64,000 bases of DNA. It comes from Alkalihalophilus pseudofirmus OF4 (lineage in GTDB: Bacteria; Bacillota; Bacilli; Bacillales; Bacillaceae_D). Each line of letters begins with the position of its first letter. Positions within the stretch are counted from its first letter, which is position 1. Location: contig NC_013791.2 of NCBI RefSeq assembly GCF_000005825.2, positions 3,286,001 to 3,350,000 on the forward strand. Reading direction: 5' to 3'. Below, piece after piece: positions 3,216 to 15,998 of this stretch. The translations under genes were made by a program, and so were the position numbers. The notes beneath the pieces were generated by a model that worked only from the letters and a program-made list of their open reading frames with translations, was not told where the DNA came from and made no database searches.

Positions 3216-3357
3216 TGAGAATATAGTTAAACAATTTCATCATTAAAAACACCTGTTCATTGATCTTTGCAAACGAAGCCCTAGACACCAGCTTTTTTTA
3301 CGTTGAACTGAATTATAACAAAATCAATCCACTTGATAATTACCAAAGCAATAACTT

Positions 3358-3473
3358 AGCGGATGAAATATACGTAGACTTCTGCAGGGACTAGAGCAGG
3401 GGTGAGATCCCACAGGGCAAAGCCCGAGGAGCTCACTAGCTCCTCGCGAAAAGCGAAGTATATGTCAGGAGCG
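3358..3473 (+). repeat. B-type repeat arm (variant)
   Basis: Begins AGCGGATGAAATATACG, ends near GTATATGTCAGGAGCG, and has the internal CTAGAGCAGGGGTGAGATCC block. It is homologous to the B arms elsewhere in the window and roughly reverse-complementary to the A arm. Between sspH and position 3553 I see only these repeats and a terminator. Confidence 0.8.
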
Positions 3474-3507
3474 GCGAGCTTAGTATGCATAGAAAATATT
3501 TCAAATA

Positions 3508-8245: not shown

Positions 8246-8280
8246 GATCCTCCAAACCTCCACTTTTTATTTTTGTATAC

Positions 8281-8352
8281 AAAAAAGACACCGAGAAACG
8301 ACAACAAGCATAATAACAAGTTTGTTATTACGCGCATTGGTTCTCCGTGTCT
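8281..8352 (-). promoter_or_regulatory. glpD leader terminator (putative GlpP antitermination target)
   Basis: On the minus strand a long imperfect hairpin, outer arms AGACACGGAGAA and TTCTCGGTGTCT with an inner TAATAACA/TGTTATTA stem, is followed by six T residues, about 35 bp upstream of the glpD start. In B. subtilis glpD, GlpP with glycerol-3-phosphate prevents termination at such a leader hairpin. The same logic is inferred here. Confidence 0.75.
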
Positions 8353-8562
8353 CCTACCGTCTATTAACTTAACTTCATGATAACATAGTTTTTTCTGTTT
8401 GGATAGCAAGAAGCGTATGGGAAAAAGAGACTGGACAAAAGTATTTTGTCTCAGGGGACTCCAAGCATTACAAATGCAGGCTGTATAGTATTACCACTGC
8501 TGAATACCTCATAGTGCTTGAGTGTGCTCGCCGCTCCTGAGATACACTTCCCTGCCATAGTT

Positions 8563-8688
8563 GTTGATTTCCACTGCAGGCGCACGCTTTCCGCGGGCGG
8601 CCCGGGAGCTTCCTCGTCGCTTTGCTCCTGTGGGATCTCCCTGGTCACGCGCATCCCGCTGGAGTCGGCGCCTTCCGCTCCAATCAAC
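8563..8688 (+). repeat. Composite repeat, A arm (copy 1)
   Basis: Starts GTTGATTTCC, ends CCAATCAAC, and has internal CGCTTTCCGCGGGCGGCC and GGAGTCGG blocks. With the B arm at 8801 it forms one composite inverted element of about 350 bp between glpD and the LCP gene. Short open frames inside it are not genes. Confidence 0.9.
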
Positions 8689-8800
8689 GGAGGAAGGATG
8701 TTGTTCAGTTGCTCCCTCAAAATAAGTAGTACTTAGTGAATAGAACTGAGCCTATTAACTACATTATTCCACCCCATTCCTGGAAAAAACAATAACTCAG

Positions 8801-8914
8801 CTCCTGAAATATGCGCAGACTCCTGCGGTGCCTAGAGCAGGGCTGAGATCCCGCAGGGCACAAGCCCGAGGAAGCTCAGCAGCTCACCGCGGAAAGCGAA
8901 GCATATTTCAGGAG
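8801..8914 (+). repeat. Composite repeat, B arm (copy 1)
   Basis: Bounded by perfect 14-bp terminal inverted repeats (CTCCTGAAATATGC and GCATATTTCAGGAG). Inside is the conserved CCTAGAGCAGGGCTGAGATC block. It is homologous, in reverse orientation, to the A arm. Confidence 0.9.
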
Positions 8915-9146
8915 CGGCGAGCTTACGCCTACACTGCATTTTTTCCCTTGAACTAAACTGTGACATCACTAGATTCCTCTAGCTTCCTGGTGTTTTTTCA
9001 GTTGCCTTATGTACGTTAAAAACAAGACCCCACAGGAGAAAAGACAAGTAGGCTCCCGTACCCGCCCACGGTAATCAACCACTACTAATAGGAGGAGCTT
9101 TTCAGCGCCCTCCTTTTCTCCCGTTTGATTCGTACTTTGTAAGGTA

Positions 9147-10064
9147 TCAATCCTCTAACTCTAGATGTTCTTTTAGCTTAGTTGATAGGGATGCAAGCTC
9201 TTCTTCATCAGGAGAGAAATAATAAATACCGTCTTTCTTTATATCTTCTCCTTCTAATTCATGCTGTTCGATTTGATCAATAGCCACATTATAAGTGGAA
9301 TAAATGTCCCATAGTTCTCCTAAAGAGAGATTCGTTAAAACATTATCTTCTACGACTTTTAGAATATCATTGAAATTAGTGAGTGAAGAAATACTCGACC
9401 CCTTTTCCATCACCGCTTCCATTACTTCACGCTGCCTTTCTTGGCGTCCGAAATCATCATCCGGATCTAAATGCCTCATCCGAGCATAGCCAAGCGCTTT
9501 TTCGCCATCAAGCTTAATCGTTCCTTCAGGGTAATGCATCTCATGAAAAGTAAACTCTTGATCATTTTCTACCTCAATGCCCCCTACTGCATCGACGGTA
9601 TCTTTAAAGCTTTCCATATTCACTTTCACATAGTAATCTACCGGCACATCTAAGAAATGCTCCACCGTATAAACAGCCGTTTCTCTGCCGCCTAAGGCAT
9701 GCGCATGACTGATTTTATCTTTTGTTACATAACCTCTTATATCCACCAGCGTATCACGTGGAATACTGACCATCTGGATCGACTCCTGATTAGGATTAAT
9801 CGTTAGAAGGATCATCGTATCGCTGCGCCCAAGATCTTCTCGACCTTCAAGTTCATCTACTCCCATTAATAAAACAGAAAGAGGATCTCCTTCATCTAAG
9901 TTAAGTTCTTCGAGCCGCTTTTCAGACTTTGAACGATCCAAGTTTTCTTGAATACTGCCAAAAGCAGACGTCGCAGCACTCCACACATATCCACCCGCTC
10001 CAACTACAAGTACTAGAGCAGCCGTCATTAGAATAAGGACTATTTTTTTCATTTTATCTGACAT
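9147..10064 (-). CDS. LytR-CpsA-Psr (LCP) family wall-polymer ligase
   Basis: A 305-residue protein with one N-terminal membrane anchor (residues 7-29) and an extracytoplasmic LCP domain. Family blocks seen are LLMGVDE, GRSDTMILLTINP, VSIPRDTLVDI, KISHAHALGG, VDAVGGIEV, LDGEKALGYARMRH and FGRQERQREVM, including the Arg residues that bind polyprenyl phosphate. LCP enzymes transfer lipid-linked anionic polymers such as teichoic acid, teichuronic acid or capsule to peptidoglycan. It lies 100 bp downstream of the GGT-glycosyltransferase fusion on the same strand, with a weak terminator between, so it may attach the polymer made by that protein. Start: ATG behind GGAGGTG. Confidence 0.9.
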   Translation of the reverse strand: MSDKMKKIVLILMTAALVLVVGAGGYVWSAATSAFGSIQENLDRSKSEKRLEELNLDEGDPLSVLLMGVDELEGREDLGRSDTMILLTINPNQESIQMVSIPRDTLVDIRGYVTKDKISHAHALGGRETAVYTVEHFLDVPVDYYVKVNMESFKDTVDAVGGIEVENDQEFTFHEMHYPEGTIKLDGEKALGYARMRHLDPDDDFGRQERQREVMEAVMEKGSSISSLTNFNDILKVVEDNVLTNLSLGELWDIYSTYNVAIDQIEQHELEGEDIKKDGIYYFSPDEEELASLSTKLKEHLELED

Positions 10065-10098
10065 GTCGACACCTCCATTCTAGCTTCAGCTTAAAAGA

Positions 10099-10131
10099 CG
10101 TAAATGCCCAACAGCAGATTGAGCATTTACG
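10099..10131 (-). terminator. Intercistronic hairpin between GGT-GT2 and LCP genes
   Basis: Arms CGTAAATGC and GCATTTACG, then TCTTTT on the minus strand. It may partially terminate, lowering LCP expression relative to the upstream gene. Confidence 0.6.
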
Positions 10132-10163
10132 ATTTATTTCCTGATTTAATTCCCCATTGCGAG

Positions 10164-13100
10164 TTAAGCAGCAGGACTTGTCTCTGACTTTGTTTCCGTT
10201 TGATAGTTTCGGCCTGTACGAGATACTTTGTTCCAATCAGTGTTGAAGAAGTACTCAATGGTCCCGTGCATAACAATGTACATCAGAGCAAATCGATAAA
10301 CAAATACATCTAAGAGAATCGTTACAAATAAAGACGGGATATCTTTCCACCTAAATCTAAACCCGTGATAGCGATTCATAATGAGCGCAAAAATATCATA
10401 AACGACCCCGAAGATAAGCAGGAAGGTTAGATAGTACAGCACATAAGCTAGATACGATTCCGGCGGCGATATAATCGCGTTGGCAATAAAGAAGCCGGTC
10501 ATAATAAAGGCTGAAACAATTCCGACTAAAAATGATTCGAAAATATAAAAGAAAGAAACAGCCTTCCTAAATAAGGTCTTTCTAAAGAAGGAGTGGAAAT
10601 GAATCACGCAATCAATATAAGCCTTCTGCCATCGTACACGCTGCTTGAAAAAGTCGTTCCATGTTTCAGGCATCTCCGTATAAGAAATGGCTTCTTTCAA
10701 GTGGATAACTTTCTTGTTCACATGTTTGGCAATATACTCGTGCATTTTCAAGGTGATATCAATATCCTCGCCGATCGTTGAACGGTACCCTCCTACTTCA
10801 AGCAATGCATCTTTTCTAAAAATCCCAAATGCCCCTGAAATAACCGCTAGCGCGTGAAAACGTGCTAATGATATTTTGGTTATATAGAAGGCTTTTAAGA
10901 AATCAAACATTTGCAAGCGGACAAGGAAGTTAGCGTGACGGAGCGATAAACGCTTGAGCGGGTTCTTTGTTTTCGTTTGCAGGACATGCACCATCCCTCC
11001 AGCAGCAACCACATCCTCATCTTCAAAAGCCTCATTTACTTTCGGCAAGGCATTTTCAGTTAAGACAGTATCGGCGTCTAATGATACGACGATGTCCTCT
11101 CCGGCATATTCAATCCCAGCATTCAGCGCATCCGCTTTTCCTCCATTTTCTTTATCAATAACGTAAATAAACGGATACAGTTCGGATTGATAGACACCCC
11201 TCACTCGTTTATGCGATAATTTTTGTAAAGGTTTTTTCGTACTCGGCTTAAGCTTTAAATACGTATTTAACAGTGAAAACGTTCGGTCTTTCGAGCCGTC
11301 ATTAATATAAATAACTTCCTTCTTTTGATAAGGCAAGGAGCTCATATTTTTTAATGAGGTTTCGATGATCCCTTGCTCGTTGTAACAAGGAACCAACACA
11401 CTGATGCCTTTTTCTTCTTCAAGCTGTCTTCTAATACTCTCACCTTTTGATTTGAACCAAGGCAGAGAATGAAGTAAATGAAGTGCAGGAAAAATAATCC
11501 CTAATATAAAGAAGACAAAAAACAGCTTCTCAAAAAACTCACTCCATTTAAATAAATCCTTAGCGTCCCATAATCCGCTTCGTCTCAAATCAGCAATCCC
11601 CGTGATTGCTCCGTTGACTTTATTTAGCTCCAGTGCTTGAATACCGCCAAAATAGACGGCAAGCTGCCTGTTTTGAAACTGATAGCCCGCTCGTGCAATA
11701 TCGCCTAATACGTCCTCAGGAAAGCCATCTTCTACATATAAGACATCATCTTCCCCGTAAAACCGTTTGGCATCCACTGCATCTTCAAGCGGCTCATCGA
11801 AATAGAGGTGCCTTGATAACACCTGGGCCATGACAGGAGGTATTCGGTTCCCTCCAGGCGTCCCAATTCCAATCACTCGCTCGTCCTCTACATAAATAGT
11901 AGGTGCCGATAAACTTCTTGAACGTTTATTGGGTGCATATGCGTTTGGAGAATTAGCGAACTCACTAAATTGCTCAGTAGAATTATTGATAAAAAAACCA
12001 GATGTATATTCACCAGAACCAAAGAAGTTGCTCAGAGTATCGGTCGCTGATACGACCATTCCATCAGGATCCACAACGACAAAATGTGTCGTATCTGTTT
12101 TTTCATCATGTTCTCTTTCTTCATCAAAGATCGTTTCTTCGGATGGTTCAGAAAGTGAAATTTGACTTGCCAGCTCTTTAATATGTTCGTCGCTTGTCAG
12201 CTCGTCCACATCAACATCAGCAAATTCCGGATCCCCCACTTTTTTAATTCGCTCGTTCTTTGTAATCTTTGAAATTTCATTCATAATATGAACAAATTCA
12301 AATTCATTGTCTTTCGTTTCCTCTATATTCATTTCTTCCGCGAGAAGCATAGACTGCACAACAGAAACCCCGGCTAGTGGCGCACTTGCAGAGTATAGCG
12401 TTCCATTTTCAAGCTCACCTTTTACTGCTTCAGTTCTTTCTACTTCATATGCAGCTAACTCTTCAGCATCTATATAAGGAACTGCCGCTGTGAATTTCTC
12501 ACCAATTTCCCCTGCATAAAAGGCTCTTGGCCCCATTTCCTGGATAGCCGATAATGTCTCTGCTAACTCTGGCTGCTTTAAGCTGTCTCCAGGCTCAATA
12601 GTCTGACCGTTTGGGAAGAAATGTGGAAGTTCTTCAACTGGCAGACGAGGTTTCGCAGCTTCAAGCCGTTCCCATAGAAGATAGTCGACTTCAAACCCCT
12701 CTTCTGCAAGAGTAACCGCCGGTGAAATCAGATGTTCCATCGGTGTTAACCCAAGATCCTCATGAATCTCAGCAAGTCCTCTGACTTGTCCTGGGACGCC
12801 CGTTGATTGTTCATTCCATTCTTCATCAGATGTTGCACTTGCCCGGTAATCATACACAACCGGCTCTTCTTTCTCAGGAGGTAAAATAAGCATTTGACCG
12901 CCGCCGCCAATCCCTGATCCATATGGTTCAACTACACCTAACACATAGGAAACAGCAATTGCCGCATCAACAGCATTTCCTCCATTTTCAAGAACCTCCA
13001 TCCCCGCTTCGACTGCAGCAGGGTGGGAAGCACTGACACCGTAATTATCGTATTTACTTTCTTTAGGTAATCCTTGTTCTTCAGCAGAAGCCGCATGCAT

Positions 13101-13166
13101 TGGTATCAGACTGCTTAAGACAAGACTATTTATGATAAATAAAATAGCTGCTTTCTTTATAAACAA
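10164..13166 (-). CDS. Gamma-glutamyltransferase / processive GT2 glycosyltransferase fusion
   Basis: About 1000 residues. I chose the TTG start at 13166, nine bases after GGAGGTG; the GTG four codons earlier lies inside the Shine-Dalgarno. Residues 1-28 are a signal peptide (AASA before EEQ). Residues 35-525 are a complete gamma-glutamyltransferase: DYRASA with the substrate Arg near 108, TDTTHFVVVD with the expected autocleavage nucleophile Thr near 359, and GTPGGNRIPP near 435. A membrane helix (about 547-569) leads to a GT2 domain (588-850) with CYNEQ, NDGSKD, DxD (697-699), GED and QRVRW, as in IcaA, NodC and hyaluronan synthases. Three or more membrane segments follow. The topology is coherent: GGT outside, glycosyltransferase inside. 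The polymer is unknown; a glutamate-plus-sugar wall polymer is inferred from the pairing and the LCP neighbour. Confidence 0.88.
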   Translation of the reverse strand: MFIKKAAILFIINSLVLSSLIPMHAASAEEQGLPKESKYDNYGVSASHPAAVEAGMEVLENGGNAVDAAIAVSYVLGVVEPYGSGIGGGGQMLILPPEKEEPVVYDYRASATSDEEWNEQSTGVPGQVRGLAEIHEDLGLTPMEHLISPAVTLAEEGFEVDYLLWERLEAAKPRLPVEELPHFFPNGQTIEPGDSLKQPELAETLSAIQEMGPRAFYAGEIGEKFTAAVPYIDAEELAAYEVERTEAVKGELENGTLYSASAPLAGVSVVQSMLLAEEMNIEETKDNEFEFVHIMNEISKITKNERIKKVGDPEFADVDVDELTSDEHIKELASQISLSEPSEETIFDEEREHDEKTDTTHFVVVDPDGMVVSATDTLSNFFGSGEYTSGFFINNSTEQFSEFANSPNAYAPNKRSRSLSAPTIYVEDERVIGIGTPGGNRIPPVMAQVLSRHLYFDEPLEDAVDAKRFYGEDDVLYVEDGFPEDVLGDIARAGYQFQNRQLAVYFGGIQALELNKVNGAITGIADLRRSGLWDAKDLFKWSEFFEKLFFVFFILGIIFPALHLLHSLPWFKSKGESIRRQLEEEKGISVLVPCYNEQGIIETSLKNMSSLPYQKKEVIYINDGSKDRTFSLLNTYLKLKPSTKKPLQKLSHKRVRGVYQSELYPFIYVIDKENGGKADALNAGIEYAGEDIVVSLDADTVLTENALPKVNEAFEDEDVVAAGGMVHVLQTKTKNPLKRLSLRHANFLVRLQMFDFLKAFYITKISLARFHALAVISGAFGIFRKDALLEVGGYRSTIGEDIDITLKMHEYIAKHVNKKVIHLKEAISYTEMPETWNDFFKQRVRWQKAYIDCVIHFHSFFRKTLFRKAVSFFYIFESFLVGIVSAFIMTGFFIANAIISPPESYLAYVLYYLTFLLIFGVVYDIFALIMNRYHGFRFRWKDIPSLFVTILLDVFVYRFALMYIVMHGTIEYFFNTDWNKVSRTGRNYQTETKSETSPAA

Positions 13167-13179
13167 ATAACCGTTCACC

Positions 13180-13720
13180 TCCGTCTTCCTATATAAAATA
13201 CATTCGTATCCTATATCAATAAGACGAACCCTGCAATTGTGTGCTGAGCGGTGATAACGAGGTGGCGGCAGTCATTCTTAGTACTATTTCATTATCGTTC
13301 ACTATGCTTTTTTCACCGAAAACAGAGATACACCCTAAATTAAATTAAGCACAATGATACCTTTATCTTTCGAATACCTAACATTAATCAAGACGTTTTG
13401 CACATGCATTCCCGGACTGAATTAGTTACTTCAAAACTAACCTAATTCGACTTATTCCTTTTTTACCGGCCTATCCTCCTCTTAAAATCCAAATTTTTTA
13501 CAATTTAATTAAACGAAACTAACAGAGGGTCATCCCCTATTGGCATTATGCCGCTTTAACTTTTGTTCCCGTATGAGCTAGGCATTATTTTTTTGGACAA
13601 TTTTATAGGGGTTTTCATTTATTTTGGATGATTGGTATAAAAGCTATAATCGGTTTCGAACAATGTTTAAACATTACGAGTGGAGGTATACGTAGAAAGA
13701 ATACAATTCTAAGGAGGGCT
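13180..13720. other. Intergenic region, no gene seen
   Basis: About 540 bp between divergent genes. It is AT-rich and only the promoter at 13622-13650 could be assigned. No repeat arm, tRNA or ORF with a ribosome site was recognised. Confidence 0.5.
13622..13650 (+). promoter_or_regulatory. Putative sigma-A promoter for Cys-rich protein gene
   Basis: A perfect TATAAT (13645-13650) follows a weak TTTTGG by 17 bp, about 75 bp upstream of the start codon. No copper-responsive palindrome was recognised. Confidence 0.5.
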
Positions 13721-13724
13721 TTTG

Positions 13725-14054
13725 ATGTCACATGAGAAATATAAGTCAATGATAACGACATTGCATGAATGCATGACTGCTTGTAACCATTGTTATGACT
13801 CTTGTTTAAAAGAAGATCACCTTGAGATGATGAGAGAGTGTATTCGATTAGACCGAGAATGTGCCGACATATGCAGTTATTTTGAACAAGCTCTAGTTAG
13901 AGGCACACCTTATGTAAGTGAGCTCGCTGCCTTATGTGCAAAAATATGCGAGGATTGTGGAAATGAGTGCAAAAAGCATGATCACGACCACTGCCAAAAA
14001 TGCGCAGAAGCATGCTTTAAGTGTGCGGAAGAGTGCAGGAAATTAGCAGCTTAG
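13725..14054 (+). CDS. Cys-rich four-helix copper-storage-like protein (Csp/DUF326)
   Basis: A 109-residue protein with 16 cysteines, mostly in CxxxC or CxxC spacing along helices (HECMTACNHCYDSC, CIRLDRECADIC, CAKICEDCGNEC, CQKCAEACFKCAEEC), plus a His-Asp cluster (KHDHDHC). This is the pattern of cytosolic copper storage proteins (Csp3/YhjQ-like), whose four-helix bundle fills with Cu(I). No signal peptide is present, so it should be cytosolic. The ATG follows AAGGAGGGC; a TTG one codon earlier is less well placed. Copper binding is inferred from family resemblance. Confidence 0.85.
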   Translation: MSHEKYKSMITTLHECMTACNHCYDSCLKEDHLEMMRECIRLDRECADICSYFEQALVRGTPYVSELAALCAKICEDCGNECKKHDHDHCQKCAEACFKCAEECRKLAA

Positions 14055-14098
14055 TATGTATGCAAAATGAGGCTGGGGCTGTTGATATATCAACAAAA

Positions 14099-14136
14099 AA
14101 TAGCGTACCAAATCATTGCGAATTGGTACGCTATTC
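14099..14136. terminator. Bidirectional terminator
   Basis: Perfect 13-bp arms AATAGCGTACCAA and TTGGTACGCTATT lie between the Cys-rich gene and the convergent tiny membrane protein gene. Confidence 0.8.
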
Positions 14137-14177
14137 TTATTCCTATTTTTATTCTCTACCTCAAAACGATGTTTTTA

Positions 14178-14288
14178 TTATGAAAAAGCTTCTAAGCCAA
14201 AAACAAAATGAGCGACTAGAAACACGATAATCATTAATACAATTCCCACTACTAGTCCTGTGAACGGCTCTTTAATATCATTATTCAT
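14178..14288 (-). CDS. Tiny single-span membrane protein (36 aa)
   Basis: ATG behind GAGGAG (about 9 bp upstream) opens a 36-residue frame: a short acidic N terminus (MNNDIKEPF) and one membrane helix (TGLVVGIVLMIIVFLVAHFVFGL). The in-frame ATG three codons earlier touches the ribosome site and is less likely. It ends before a strong terminator. It is not recognised, and may be a small membrane regulator or a subunit partner. Confidence 0.6.
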   Translation of the reverse strand: MNNDIKEPFTGLVVGIVLMIIVFLVAHFVFGLEAFS

Positions 14289-14318
14289 TGATTTCATCTC
14301 CTCTAATGTGTGAGTTGT

Positions 14319-14657
14319 TTATAACTTGTGAATAACATTAGAGTGAGCGAAAAAAGTACTTTGATATTTGATCGTCATGAGTAGGCATTTTATCTTAAGT
14401 AAAGGAATAGATGATTTCAGATAAAACTGGAGATGAGCTGAAATACTGTCTGCACAAGCCAAGACATAAGCCTTTAAAACATAACCCGTATACTCAATGG
14501 TTGGTCCAGAGCTCAGTCCTCCCAGCTTTTCTAACTCTTCTAGTTCATGGGTAATGTATGCAGGGTGATCATGATGTCCTTCAGGTATGAGTACATGGCT
14601 GTAAGAACTCACAATAACTGATAACAAAAAACTAACGATAAGTAACCCTTTGCCCAT
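14319..14657 (-). CDS. Hypothetical secreted or membrane-anchored protein
   Basis: A 112-residue protein. The ATG chosen lies 8 bp after GGGGAGGTG. The N terminus (GKGLLIVSFLLSVIVSSYSHV) looks like a signal peptide or anchor, followed by a His-rich stretch (PEGHHDHPAYITHELEEL). I do not recognise the family. It is 30 bp upstream of the tiny membrane protein gene on the same strand, so the two may be co-transcribed. The ribosome site is the main support. Confidence 0.5.
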   Translation of the reverse strand: MGKGLLIVSFLLSVIVSSYSHVLIPEGHHDHPAYITHELEELEKLGGLSSGPTIEYTGYVLKAYVLACADSISAHLQFYLKSSIPLLKIKCLLMTIKYQSTFFAHSNVIHKL

Positions 14658-14900
14658 CCTACACACACCTCCCCTACCTAATTTTTGATTCCCCTTTGTG
14701 GATAATCGTACTATAATCTAGTTTTTTCCTTTTGTCTATTGAATATGTGAATAAGAAGTGGATAACATCAGCTTTAAAAAACAGCAATACCTTCTGACCC
14801 TGAAAACAATCGGGAAACGCTCAAATATGTGCCTTCAGTTATTGCGTTAGGAAGATGTTTTGTTTATGGAGGTTACTTTATAAAGAAAGGAGCTGTATTA

Positions 14901-15311
14901 ATGTTAGAAAAAACTGAAGCTGCTTATTTAGCCGGAATTATTGATGGGGAAGGTACAATTTCTTTAACTAGAGCGCATTTGAAAGAAAATCGTAGACCTG
15001 TTATTTCTATACCGAGTAAAGACAGGGAACTATTAGACTACATTAAAAACCTGGTTGGAGGTTATATTACATCAAAGAAAAACTACAAGCCTGGAACTCA
15101 TAAAGATTCTTATGTTTTATCGGTCAAGAATAAAAGTATGGTTATGAGTATTCTAAGAGACATTATTCCCTATCTCAAAATAAAACAAAAAAAATTACGG
15201 GCTCAATTTATATTAGATCATTACGAAAACGTGACTTGTCGGAATGGTAAATACACTGATGAAAAATTAATATTAAAACGAAAATTCGAGCAAGATTTTT
15301 TCTCTTTATAA
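14901..15311 (+). CDS. LAGLIDADG homing endonuclease, single motif, next to intron-bearing ssrA
   Basis: A 136-residue protein behind AAAGGAG. It has one LAGLIDADG motif (YLAGIIDGEG, residues 9-18) including the metal-binding acidic residue, followed by a typical beta-rich body (VISIPSKDRELLDYIKNLVGG, SYVLSVKNKSMVMSILRDIIPYLKIKQKKLRAQFILDHYE). Single-motif enzymes act as homodimers on pseudo-palindromic DNA. The gene is not inside an intron: it is convergent with ssrA and ends about 50 bp before the tmRNA 3' end, with a hairpin between. A role in spreading the ssrA intron is inferred from the position. Confidence 0.85.
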   Translation: MLEKTEAAYLAGIIDGEGTISLTRAHLKENRRPVISIPSKDRELLDYIKNLVGGYITSKKNYKPGTHKDSYVLSVKNKSMVMSILRDIIPYLKIKQKKLRAQFILDHYENVTCRNGKYTDEKLILKRKFEQDFFSL

Positions 15312-15347
15312 CAAAACAACCCGATCACCTGGTGCAGTGATCGGGTT
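15312..15347. terminator. Terminator between ssrA and the LAGLIDADG gene
   Basis: Perfect 11-bp arms AACCCGATCAC and GTGATCGGGTT. On the minus strand they are followed by GTTTTGTT, so it mainly ends ssrA. Confidence 0.85.
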
Positions 15348-15360
15348 GACGGTATAAGTA

Positions 15361-15998
15361 TGGTGGAGACGGTGGGACATGTAATTCCATGCTTTCGCAA
15401 TGGCACTGACTATATCTTGAACTTGATCAACAAGTCCCTTGGCGTATTATGGAACATGTATTTTGTGCAATCTATTGCAGAATGCTCCATCCTAGTACTA
15501 CCTTGTAGGCAGCCTATAAGTCGATACACGGCTGTTGGATTGCTCCACATACCGCTCGGCATCACCTTATCATAACGTATTCGTCATGACGTAGACTTCA
15601 CCGATAAAGCCAAGTTATCACTCATGCGTCACCACATGAGGCGACTATTTCCATAATCGAACCCACGTCCAGAAACAACGACACTTATGCTTCTACGAGT
15701 GTAGTTACTGTATTAGCATTTCGCCAATTCTTCTGCCCAGTAACAGGCGTCCGAACGGCTAGTCTGATCAATCTCTTCCTTCGCTCACAGACGGAGAGCA
15801 GCCGGCGTAGCCCACTTAGAGTGAGTTCCAGTACCTACCACATGGGCGATGGAGGGTGGAACCGCAGAGTGCTATTAGGCAGCTACTGCGAAGTTGTTGT
15901 TTTCTTTGCCAGTTATAGGCTTTGGCGTTTTAACGAGGCCGACCCCCTCGACTCGCAACATAAGCACGACCTATCCCTGTCGAATCCTAAACGTCCCC
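15361..15998 (-). ncRNA. ssrA: tmRNA (ssrA) interrupted by a group I intron
   Basis: Exon 1 is 15998-15656 and exon 2 is 15377-15361; the spliced RNA would be 360 nt. The 5' end GGGGACG pairs with CGTCTCC before the encoded ACCA tail (one G-U pair). The tag frame begins GGCAAAGAAAAC and encodes GKENNNFAVAA then TAA TAG, so the degradation tag is A plus this peptide. The T arm GTGGG-TTCGAT is split from TCCCAC; joining them gives a 5-bp stem with a 7-nt loop, TTCGATT. The tmRNA rescues stalled ribosomes with SmpB, whose gene is directly upstream. Mature function would require intron splicing. Confidence 0.95.
15378..15655 (-). other. Group I intron (IA-like) in the ssrA T-loop
   Basis: 278 nt, no internal ORF. 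P1 is a hairpin across the 5' splice site: exon CGAU with a U-G wobble at the cut, extended by UAU/AUA and closed by a GGAA tetraloop. P2: CTCATG/CATGAG. P3: CTTGGC pairs with GCCAAG. P8: ACTTG-TTGAT-CAAGT, followed by the hallmark AAGATATAGTC, whose 3' part pairs with GACTTATA as P7 with a bulge. Extra hairpins between P7 and P3 resemble P7.1/P7.2 of subgroup IA. P9 is capped by GAAA. The intron ends with the required G at 15378. Confidence 0.93.

Follow-up and report, generated by a model that had tools for sequence, protein, structure and literature searches.

Capsules of poly-gamma-glutamate are commonly regarded as a system distinct from the glycans of the wall. We analysed a stretch of 64,000 nucleotides from Alkalihalophilus pseudofirmus OF4 (NC_013791.2, positions 3,286,001 to 3,350,000; hereafter the window), in which one gene joins a CapD-type transpeptidase to a membrane glycosyltransferase of family 2 (GT2) and is followed by a gene for a LytR-CpsA-Psr (LCP) wall-glycopolymer ligase. 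The GT2 half belongs with the processive GT2 class, which is defined by its Asp, DxD, ED and QxxRW motifs. The fusion is conserved, often stands in poly-gamma-glutamate gene clusters and is accompanied by the LCP gene. This arrangement leads to the prediction of a covalent hybrid polymer and shows which genes could be used to test it.

Among described systems, the first half is most similar to CapD of Bacillus anthracis (PDB 3g9k, 3ga9), with which it shares the TTH nucleophile site, the GG motif and the RR near the C-terminus, as well as, in six of nine loci, the position beside poly-gamma-glutamate synthase genes that capD has in the cap operon. The fusion differs from CapD in its additional C-terminal membrane helix and GT2 synthase, and in coexisting with a free CapD in three clusters. 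Ordinary secreted gamma-glutamyltranspeptidases (GGTs) belong to the same family, PF01019, but the fusion is closer to CapD. The second half shares processive-type GT2 motifs and flanking membrane segments with the PgaC/IcaA poly-beta-1,6-GlcNAc synthases and with NodC, although it scores far below their cut-offs (142 of 422 and 53 of 550 bits) and has a secreted enzyme before its N-terminal helix, plus an LCP partner. The gene next to the fusion is clearly an LCP gene like those of the TagU/LytR ligases, but it falls below the TagU equivalog cut-off and is paired with a GT2 synthase. Teichuronopeptide, the polyglucuronate-polyglutamate wall polymer of alkaliphilic bacilli, is a parallel in concept, as it combines glutamate with sugar in one wall polymer; its TupA system differs in that TupA was not found in the window genome.

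We also looked for earlier reports of this architecture or of a hybrid polymer and found no paper in one open full-text library, outside which most subscription papers lie; in the main text of a survey of GGT subfamilies (PMC4568574) the words fusion, fused and glycosyl do not occur. Within the open-library literature, the claim of the original prediction, a reading of the sequence alone, that no characterised protein has this architecture therefore stands, and uncharacterised homologues exist in eight further genomes. The parts are known families; what appears new, within the literature searched, is their joining and the predicted hybrid polymer.

Reading frame and domains of the fusion

The features of the locus are listed below. 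Residue numbers count from GTG 13178, so that T363 in this numbering is T359 when counted from TTG 13166.

10164..13178, minus strand: CapD-GT2 fusion gene, from GTG 13178 or more likely TTG 13166; 1004 or 1000 residues
13083..13166, minus strand: predicted Sec signal peptide ending AASA, residues 5-32 (hydropathy, cleavage site read by eye)
12093..13082, minus strand: CapD-type transpeptidase large subunit, residues 33-362
11556..12092, minus strand: CapD-type small subunit, residues 363-541, beginning with the nucleophile T363
11454..11546, minus strand: predicted transmembrane helix, residues 545-575 (hydropathy), with a short linker to the CapD half
10599..11411, minus strand: GT2 catalytic domain, residues 590-860, with CYNEQ, NDGS, DADT, GED and QRVRW
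10263..10565, minus strand: three C-terminal hydrophobic segments, residues 872-972 (hydropathy)
10099..10131, minus strand: terminator-like hairpin of 14 pairs (consensus match), separating the fusion from the LCP gene
9147..10064, minus strand: LCP wall-glycopolymer ligase gene (Pfam, NCBIfam)

From GTG 13178 the minus strand reads through 1004 codons without a stop, and the plus strand at 10164-13166 has stops throughout. The original prediction of one continuous frame joining two enzymes had named no strand and is borne out on the minus strand. Inspection of the sequence identified a Shine-Dalgarno-like GGAGGTGA that overlaps GTG 13178 and sits 8 nt 5' of TTG 13166, which makes TTG 13166 the better and likely start. 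The N-terminus is hydrophobic in all fusions aligned. By Pfam, PF01019 spans residues 61-535 with E 2e-104 and GT2 families match 593-921 with E 7e-25 at best, and the predicted motifs TTH, CYNEQ, DADT (the DxD), GED and QRVRW were each found in the protein.

We considered whether a sequencing or assembly error had joined two genes, as free-standing versions of both halves exist and a stop between the halves had been named in advance as a possible refutation. No such stop was found: another assembly of the window species also has the frame open, with differences in 41 of 1005 codons, 35 of them silent, and so do seven more species, each with PF01019 and GT2 by Pfam. The distance between the RR near the CapD C-terminus and an FP in the helix is 31 residues in seven of the eight species and 29 in the eighth. 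An error is therefore ruled out for practical purposes, as the fusion recurs in nine genomes and its halves are 56-83% identical between species. No in-frame methionine codon that could start a separate GT2 occurs at residues 530-600, where GTG or TTG starts remain possible.

Comparison with solved structures revealed that the transpeptidase half is closer in sequence to CapD than to ordinary GGT, scoring 239 bits with the large chain of CapD (residues 43-339) and 153 bits with the small chain, vs 238 bits for the best whole GGT; over residues 43-539 the best solved match is CapD. The small-chain match starts exactly at T363, the first residue of that chain. T363, the T and H that follow it and GG 442-443 are invariant in all eight fusion species and in all 23 other CapD-like proteins aligned, so the TTH autocleavage site predicted near Thr 359 is intact, and cleavage of the fusion by itself at T363 may be expected. 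Membership in PF01019 is clear (350 bits vs a cut-off of 27, profile positions 2-512 of 512). The GGT model TIGR00066 gives 317 of 358 bits, but it is unable to tell CapD from GGT, as two free CapD relatives exceed its cut-off (364 and 391 bits). The secreted PF01019 enzyme of the original prediction is thus retained, while its assignment as an ordinary GGT is refined to CapD-type.

As for single residues, the acceptor residues of CapD are named as Arg423 and Arg520 in a review (PMC8062742). By count on the printed CapD chain, Arg520 corresponds to R533 of the fusion and position 423 is no arginine; the published number is possibly a slip for 432 (R445 of the fusion). Both R445 and R533 are conserved in the fusions, but the alignments show one or the other in ordinary GGTs as well, so they are consistent with a CapD-type enzyme and not diagnostic. 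Residue contrasts with the GGT-like group of our comparison prove little, because that group is a distant paralogue (25-28% identity) and not classical GGT. An ordinary GGT acting on glutathione is disfavoured by score and gene context. The donor is more likely poly-gamma-glutamate from PgsBCA than glutathione or single glutamyl units, given the closeness to CapD.

In the GT2 half, the motifs NDGS, DADT, GED and QR(V/I/Y)RW are intact in the nine fusions aligned, and hydropathy predicts one membrane segment before the catalytic domain and three after it. The best curated match is the PgaC/IcaA poly-GlcNAc synthase model TIGR03937, at 142.6 of the 422.3 bits of its equivalog cut-off, too far for the match to fix the backbone sugar; the TuaG model of NCBIfam gives 27 bits. 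In the alignment, helix 545-575 of the fusion is also the N-terminus of free-standing GT2 relatives, 14 of which start with one helix of this kind, in some cases preceded by a short extension. With a single N-terminal helix, the N-terminus of these free GT2s should lie outside. By this topology the CapD half of the fusion would be attached at the outer end of the helix, with the GT2 domain on the inner membrane face. The proposal that the small subunit stays joined to the synthase after autocleavage, at its exit side, fits the predicted placement on the outer face.

Distribution, gene partners and origin

A domain search across genomes, as had been suggested, found full-length fusions in nine genomes of eight species, four families and one order. 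These are two assemblies of the window species (G000 and G002), G013, G216, G425, G388, G443, G445 and G150. By sample, the counts were 2 of 4 genomes for the genus, 3 of 41 for the family and 4 of 397 for the order; for four other families they were 2 of 35, 3 of 29, 1 of 16 and 0 of 34. The samples overlap, and the E limits were 1e-3 (genus, family), 1e-40 (order), 1e-140 (other families) and 1e-110 (phylum). The phylum sample gave 1 of 398 genomes, the window's own only (E 1e-110). With these limits, and with two candidates scored per genome in the order and phylum searches, diverged or weaker fusions may have been missed. Identity among the eight species is 56-77% for the CapD halves and 64-83% for the GT2 halves. 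In a plasmid collection no record held 80% of the fusion query in one place, and a scan of genome contigs with patterns from one sequence returned a distant Prevotella GT2 only.

The LCP gene follows the fusion in 9/9 genomes. In the window it scores 172 bits with PF03816 (cut-off 24.6) and 160 with TIGR00350 (cut-off 62.3), and its best NCBIfam match is TagU, at 371 of the 441 bits needed. Six of the nine genomes carry pgsB and pgsC immediately upstream of the fusion and in the same orientation. The order is pgsBCA-capD-fusion-LCP in G013, G388 and G445, pgsBC-fusion-LCP in G216 and G425, and pgsBCA-fusion-LCP-polysaccharide deacetylase in G443 (deacetylase by Pfam). PgsC was found in 71 of 397 genomes of the order (70 over the cut-off), among them all four with a fusion (p 0.001). 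The CapD half, the GT2 half and LCP also diverge in step over the eight species (r 0.92, 0.85 and 0.85). Two of these genomes hold larger assemblages: in G443 (L128/L129, C1:4196001-4236000) about 28 kb contain the fusion, three more CapD-like genes, a free GT2-LCP pair, pgsBCA, the deacetylase and NlpC/P60, and in G216 (L077 8264-19999) two pgs clusters, pgsBC-fusion-LCP and pgsBCA-capD, stand back to back.

We mapped the free-standing GT2 relatives at all 17 loci of the order search with a separate GT2 (54-64% identity) and at one from another family. An LCP gene adjoins the GT2 in 14 of these 18 loci (in L086 it is broken into two frames) and is lacking in the other four (L082, L094, L105 and L106); a deacetylase gene adjoins it in three. 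Twelve relatives at 46-50% identity were also listed, and the three mapped (48-50%) all adjoin a deacetylase and none an LCP gene. At 43% identity, a free GT2 of the window's genus (G003, L097 9459-11639) stands beside a GH16 glycosidase/hydrolase, and another in G183 adjoins neither LCP nor deacetylase. PgsC is missing in 10 of the 16 sampled genomes holding a free GT2. Because of this, and of the LCP gene at 14/18 loci, GT2-LCP appears to be a self-standing wall-glycan module; on this reading, CapD was added to it in poly-glutamate producers.

Trees, built with one of the two near-identical window-species sequences, were used to follow the origin of the fusion. The CapD tree unites the eight fusions with three unfused rows (100/100) and separates them from the remaining CapD-like rows, and in the GT2 tree the eight fusions group with an unfused gene of G371 (96/87). 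This G371 GT2 retains a signal peptide that matches the one of the neighbouring CapD gene, with 76% identity over 148 nt and a score of 130 vs a best of 39 in 2000 shuffles; the G371 CapD (L051) is divergent and has LysM-like repeats (SafA-type NCBIfam match, two stretches). The pair (L080 7331-12683) is probably a fusion that was duplicated and then split. The tree alone is no proof of this split, since after removal of four long rows the test did not reject a GT2 topology that separates G371 from the fusions (p-AU 0.38). A G443 CapD without GT2 nests beside the fusion of the same genome. Topology tests with a hand-picked set of 20 from the 52 CapD rows rejected a tree keeping the fusions apart from all unfused rows (p-AU 6.5e-5), and did not reject one CapD clade of the fusions, the unfused G443 row and G371 (p-AU 0.30). 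A single origin of the fusion appears possible and likely, with the deep forks of the CapD tree unsettled.

Possible product of the fused enzyme

Our preferred reading, a tentative one that falls somewhat short of an even chance, is that the fusion is a wall-polymer enzyme with two activities. At the inner membrane face, the GT2 domain would build and extrude a homopolymeric glycan, probably of an amino sugar. Outside, a short distance from the membrane, the CapD domain would cut itself at T363, bind poly-gamma-glutamate chains from PgsBCA covalently in an acyl-threonine intermediate and transfer them to amino groups of the glycan as it emerges; LCP would then join the product to peptidoglycan. 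The architecture, the catalytic motifs, the recurrence and the linkage to pgs and LCP genes are observed, whereas activity, topology, sugar, acceptor and the covalent link are inferred. That one polypeptide makes a novel wall polymer in this way, a brush of glycan and poly-glutamate grafted as the chain emerges and fixed to the wall by LCP, is a further proposal that we regard as possible but doubtful. A review (PMC7759979) reports that CapD cuts poly-gamma-glutamate and forms amide bonds to peptidoglycan cross-bridges, that two N-deacetylase mutants of B. anthracis are impaired in this anchoring of the capsule, and that these N-deacetylases appear to create the GlcNAc amines where poly-gamma-glutamate is anchored. 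Considering this precedent, an amino-glycan from the fused synthase is a plausible acceptor. In addition, the presence of a free capD beside the fusion in G013, G388 and G445 argues for a different acceptor of the fusion.

Several observations weigh against such grafting. Lipid-linked glycans are the known substrates of LCP enzymes, and PgaC-type synthases are not known to produce them. At the window locus a terminator-like hairpin separates the fusion from the LCP gene (nine such sites were found in the 5-kb region, vs 4.2 expected), so co-transcription of the two is not assured there. The fusion-LCP pair lies away from pgs in three of the nine genomes, those of the window species and G150, in which pgsBCA is found elsewhere (L096 and L142 in the window species, L113 in G150); in the window genome pgsBCA-capD is about 300 kb from the fusion locus. 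A deacetylase stands beside the fusion cluster at only one of nine loci, and not in the window. Residue 112, a likely donor-site residue, is R in six of the eight fusion species and W in two, which speaks against a fully uniform donor site. PgsC occurs in 6 of the 16 genomes with only a free GT2, somewhat above the order rate (p 0.048), and this over-representation means that the GT2-LCP module may itself be connected with poly-glutamate. Finally, G371 and G443 retain the fusion in split form, so the joining is not indispensable.

Nearly as likely as the graft is that the fusion does no more than hold CapD at the membrane and link the dosage of two wall polymers: CapD would anchor poly-gamma-glutamate to peptidoglycan as in B. 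anthracis, and GT2 would make a separate wall glycan. Two unfused CapDs of the same clade may be anchored by different means: the one in G371 has LysM-like repeats, and L119 in G443 ends in a hydrophobic tail at its C-terminus. This agrees with a requirement for placement at the wall or membrane rather than for GT2, and the free GT2-LCP modules in genomes lacking PgsC point the same way. On the contrary, a third unfused CapD (L122 in G443) shows neither feature, the three clusters already hold a free CapD beside the fusion, the nearly constant linker length fits a closer partnership, and the split genes in G371 remain side by side. It is improbable, in our view, that the CapD domain instead trims or hydrolyses poly-gamma-glutamate near the membrane and so sets its chain length, with the glycan unrelated; the depolymerase activity of CapD, reported in the same review (PMC7759979), and NlpC/P60 genes near several pgs loci would agree with it, but it gives no account of the joining to a glycan synthase or of the LCP gene that always follows. 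The link to teichuronopeptide drawn in the original prediction was not supported, and we consider such a copolymer very unlikely as the product, even though it is a wall polymer of alkaliphilic bacilli. TupA (PF14305) had no match in either assembly of the window species and is present in only two of the nine fusion genomes (and in 4 of 22 others searched), although uronic-acid genes were not searched by family; moreover, the best curated match of the GT2 half is a GlcNAc synthase, with TuaG far behind.

The fusion offers a way to approach the acceptor of CapD-type enzymes, and its recurrence in several bacterial families is a hint that poly-glutamate and a glycan may be bonded together in one wall material. 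Should the host be alkaliphilic, as originally assumed, the fusion also bears on the acidic walls of such bacteria.

Chromosomal site and neighbouring genes

In the window the fusion-LCP pair sits between glpD and ssrA-smpB. Its CapD and GT2 halves are nearer to those of two other families (f25 and f35, 65-76% identity) than to those of G013 of its own family (63 and 68%). Together with the patchy spread, this suggests that the pair moved horizontally.

The interval from glpD to the transfer-messenger RNA (tmRNA) gene (window 8264-15654) is a variable site, with the fusion-LCP pair among the genes it holds. At the same site G001 (L140) has other genes, among them those for G6PD and 6PGD, with an RNase R that is 100% identical, and in G003 (L141) the flanks are only about 0.4 kb apart; identity in the main matches of the flanks is 77-96%. 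A cysteine-rich DUF326 protein is encoded upstream of the fusion on the opposite strand (13722-14054, plus strand). A frame resembling a LAGLIDADG endonuclease (14829-15311, plus strand) lies on the 3' side of the tmRNA gene, about 340 bases away from it; the tmRNA gene itself (15654-15990, minus strand) is detected by Rfam with 157 bits and not reported by ARAGORN. A small interspersed repeat of about 75-140 bases occurs at 3353-3482 and 8794-8987 of the window, and once each in the G001 and G003 stretches compared.

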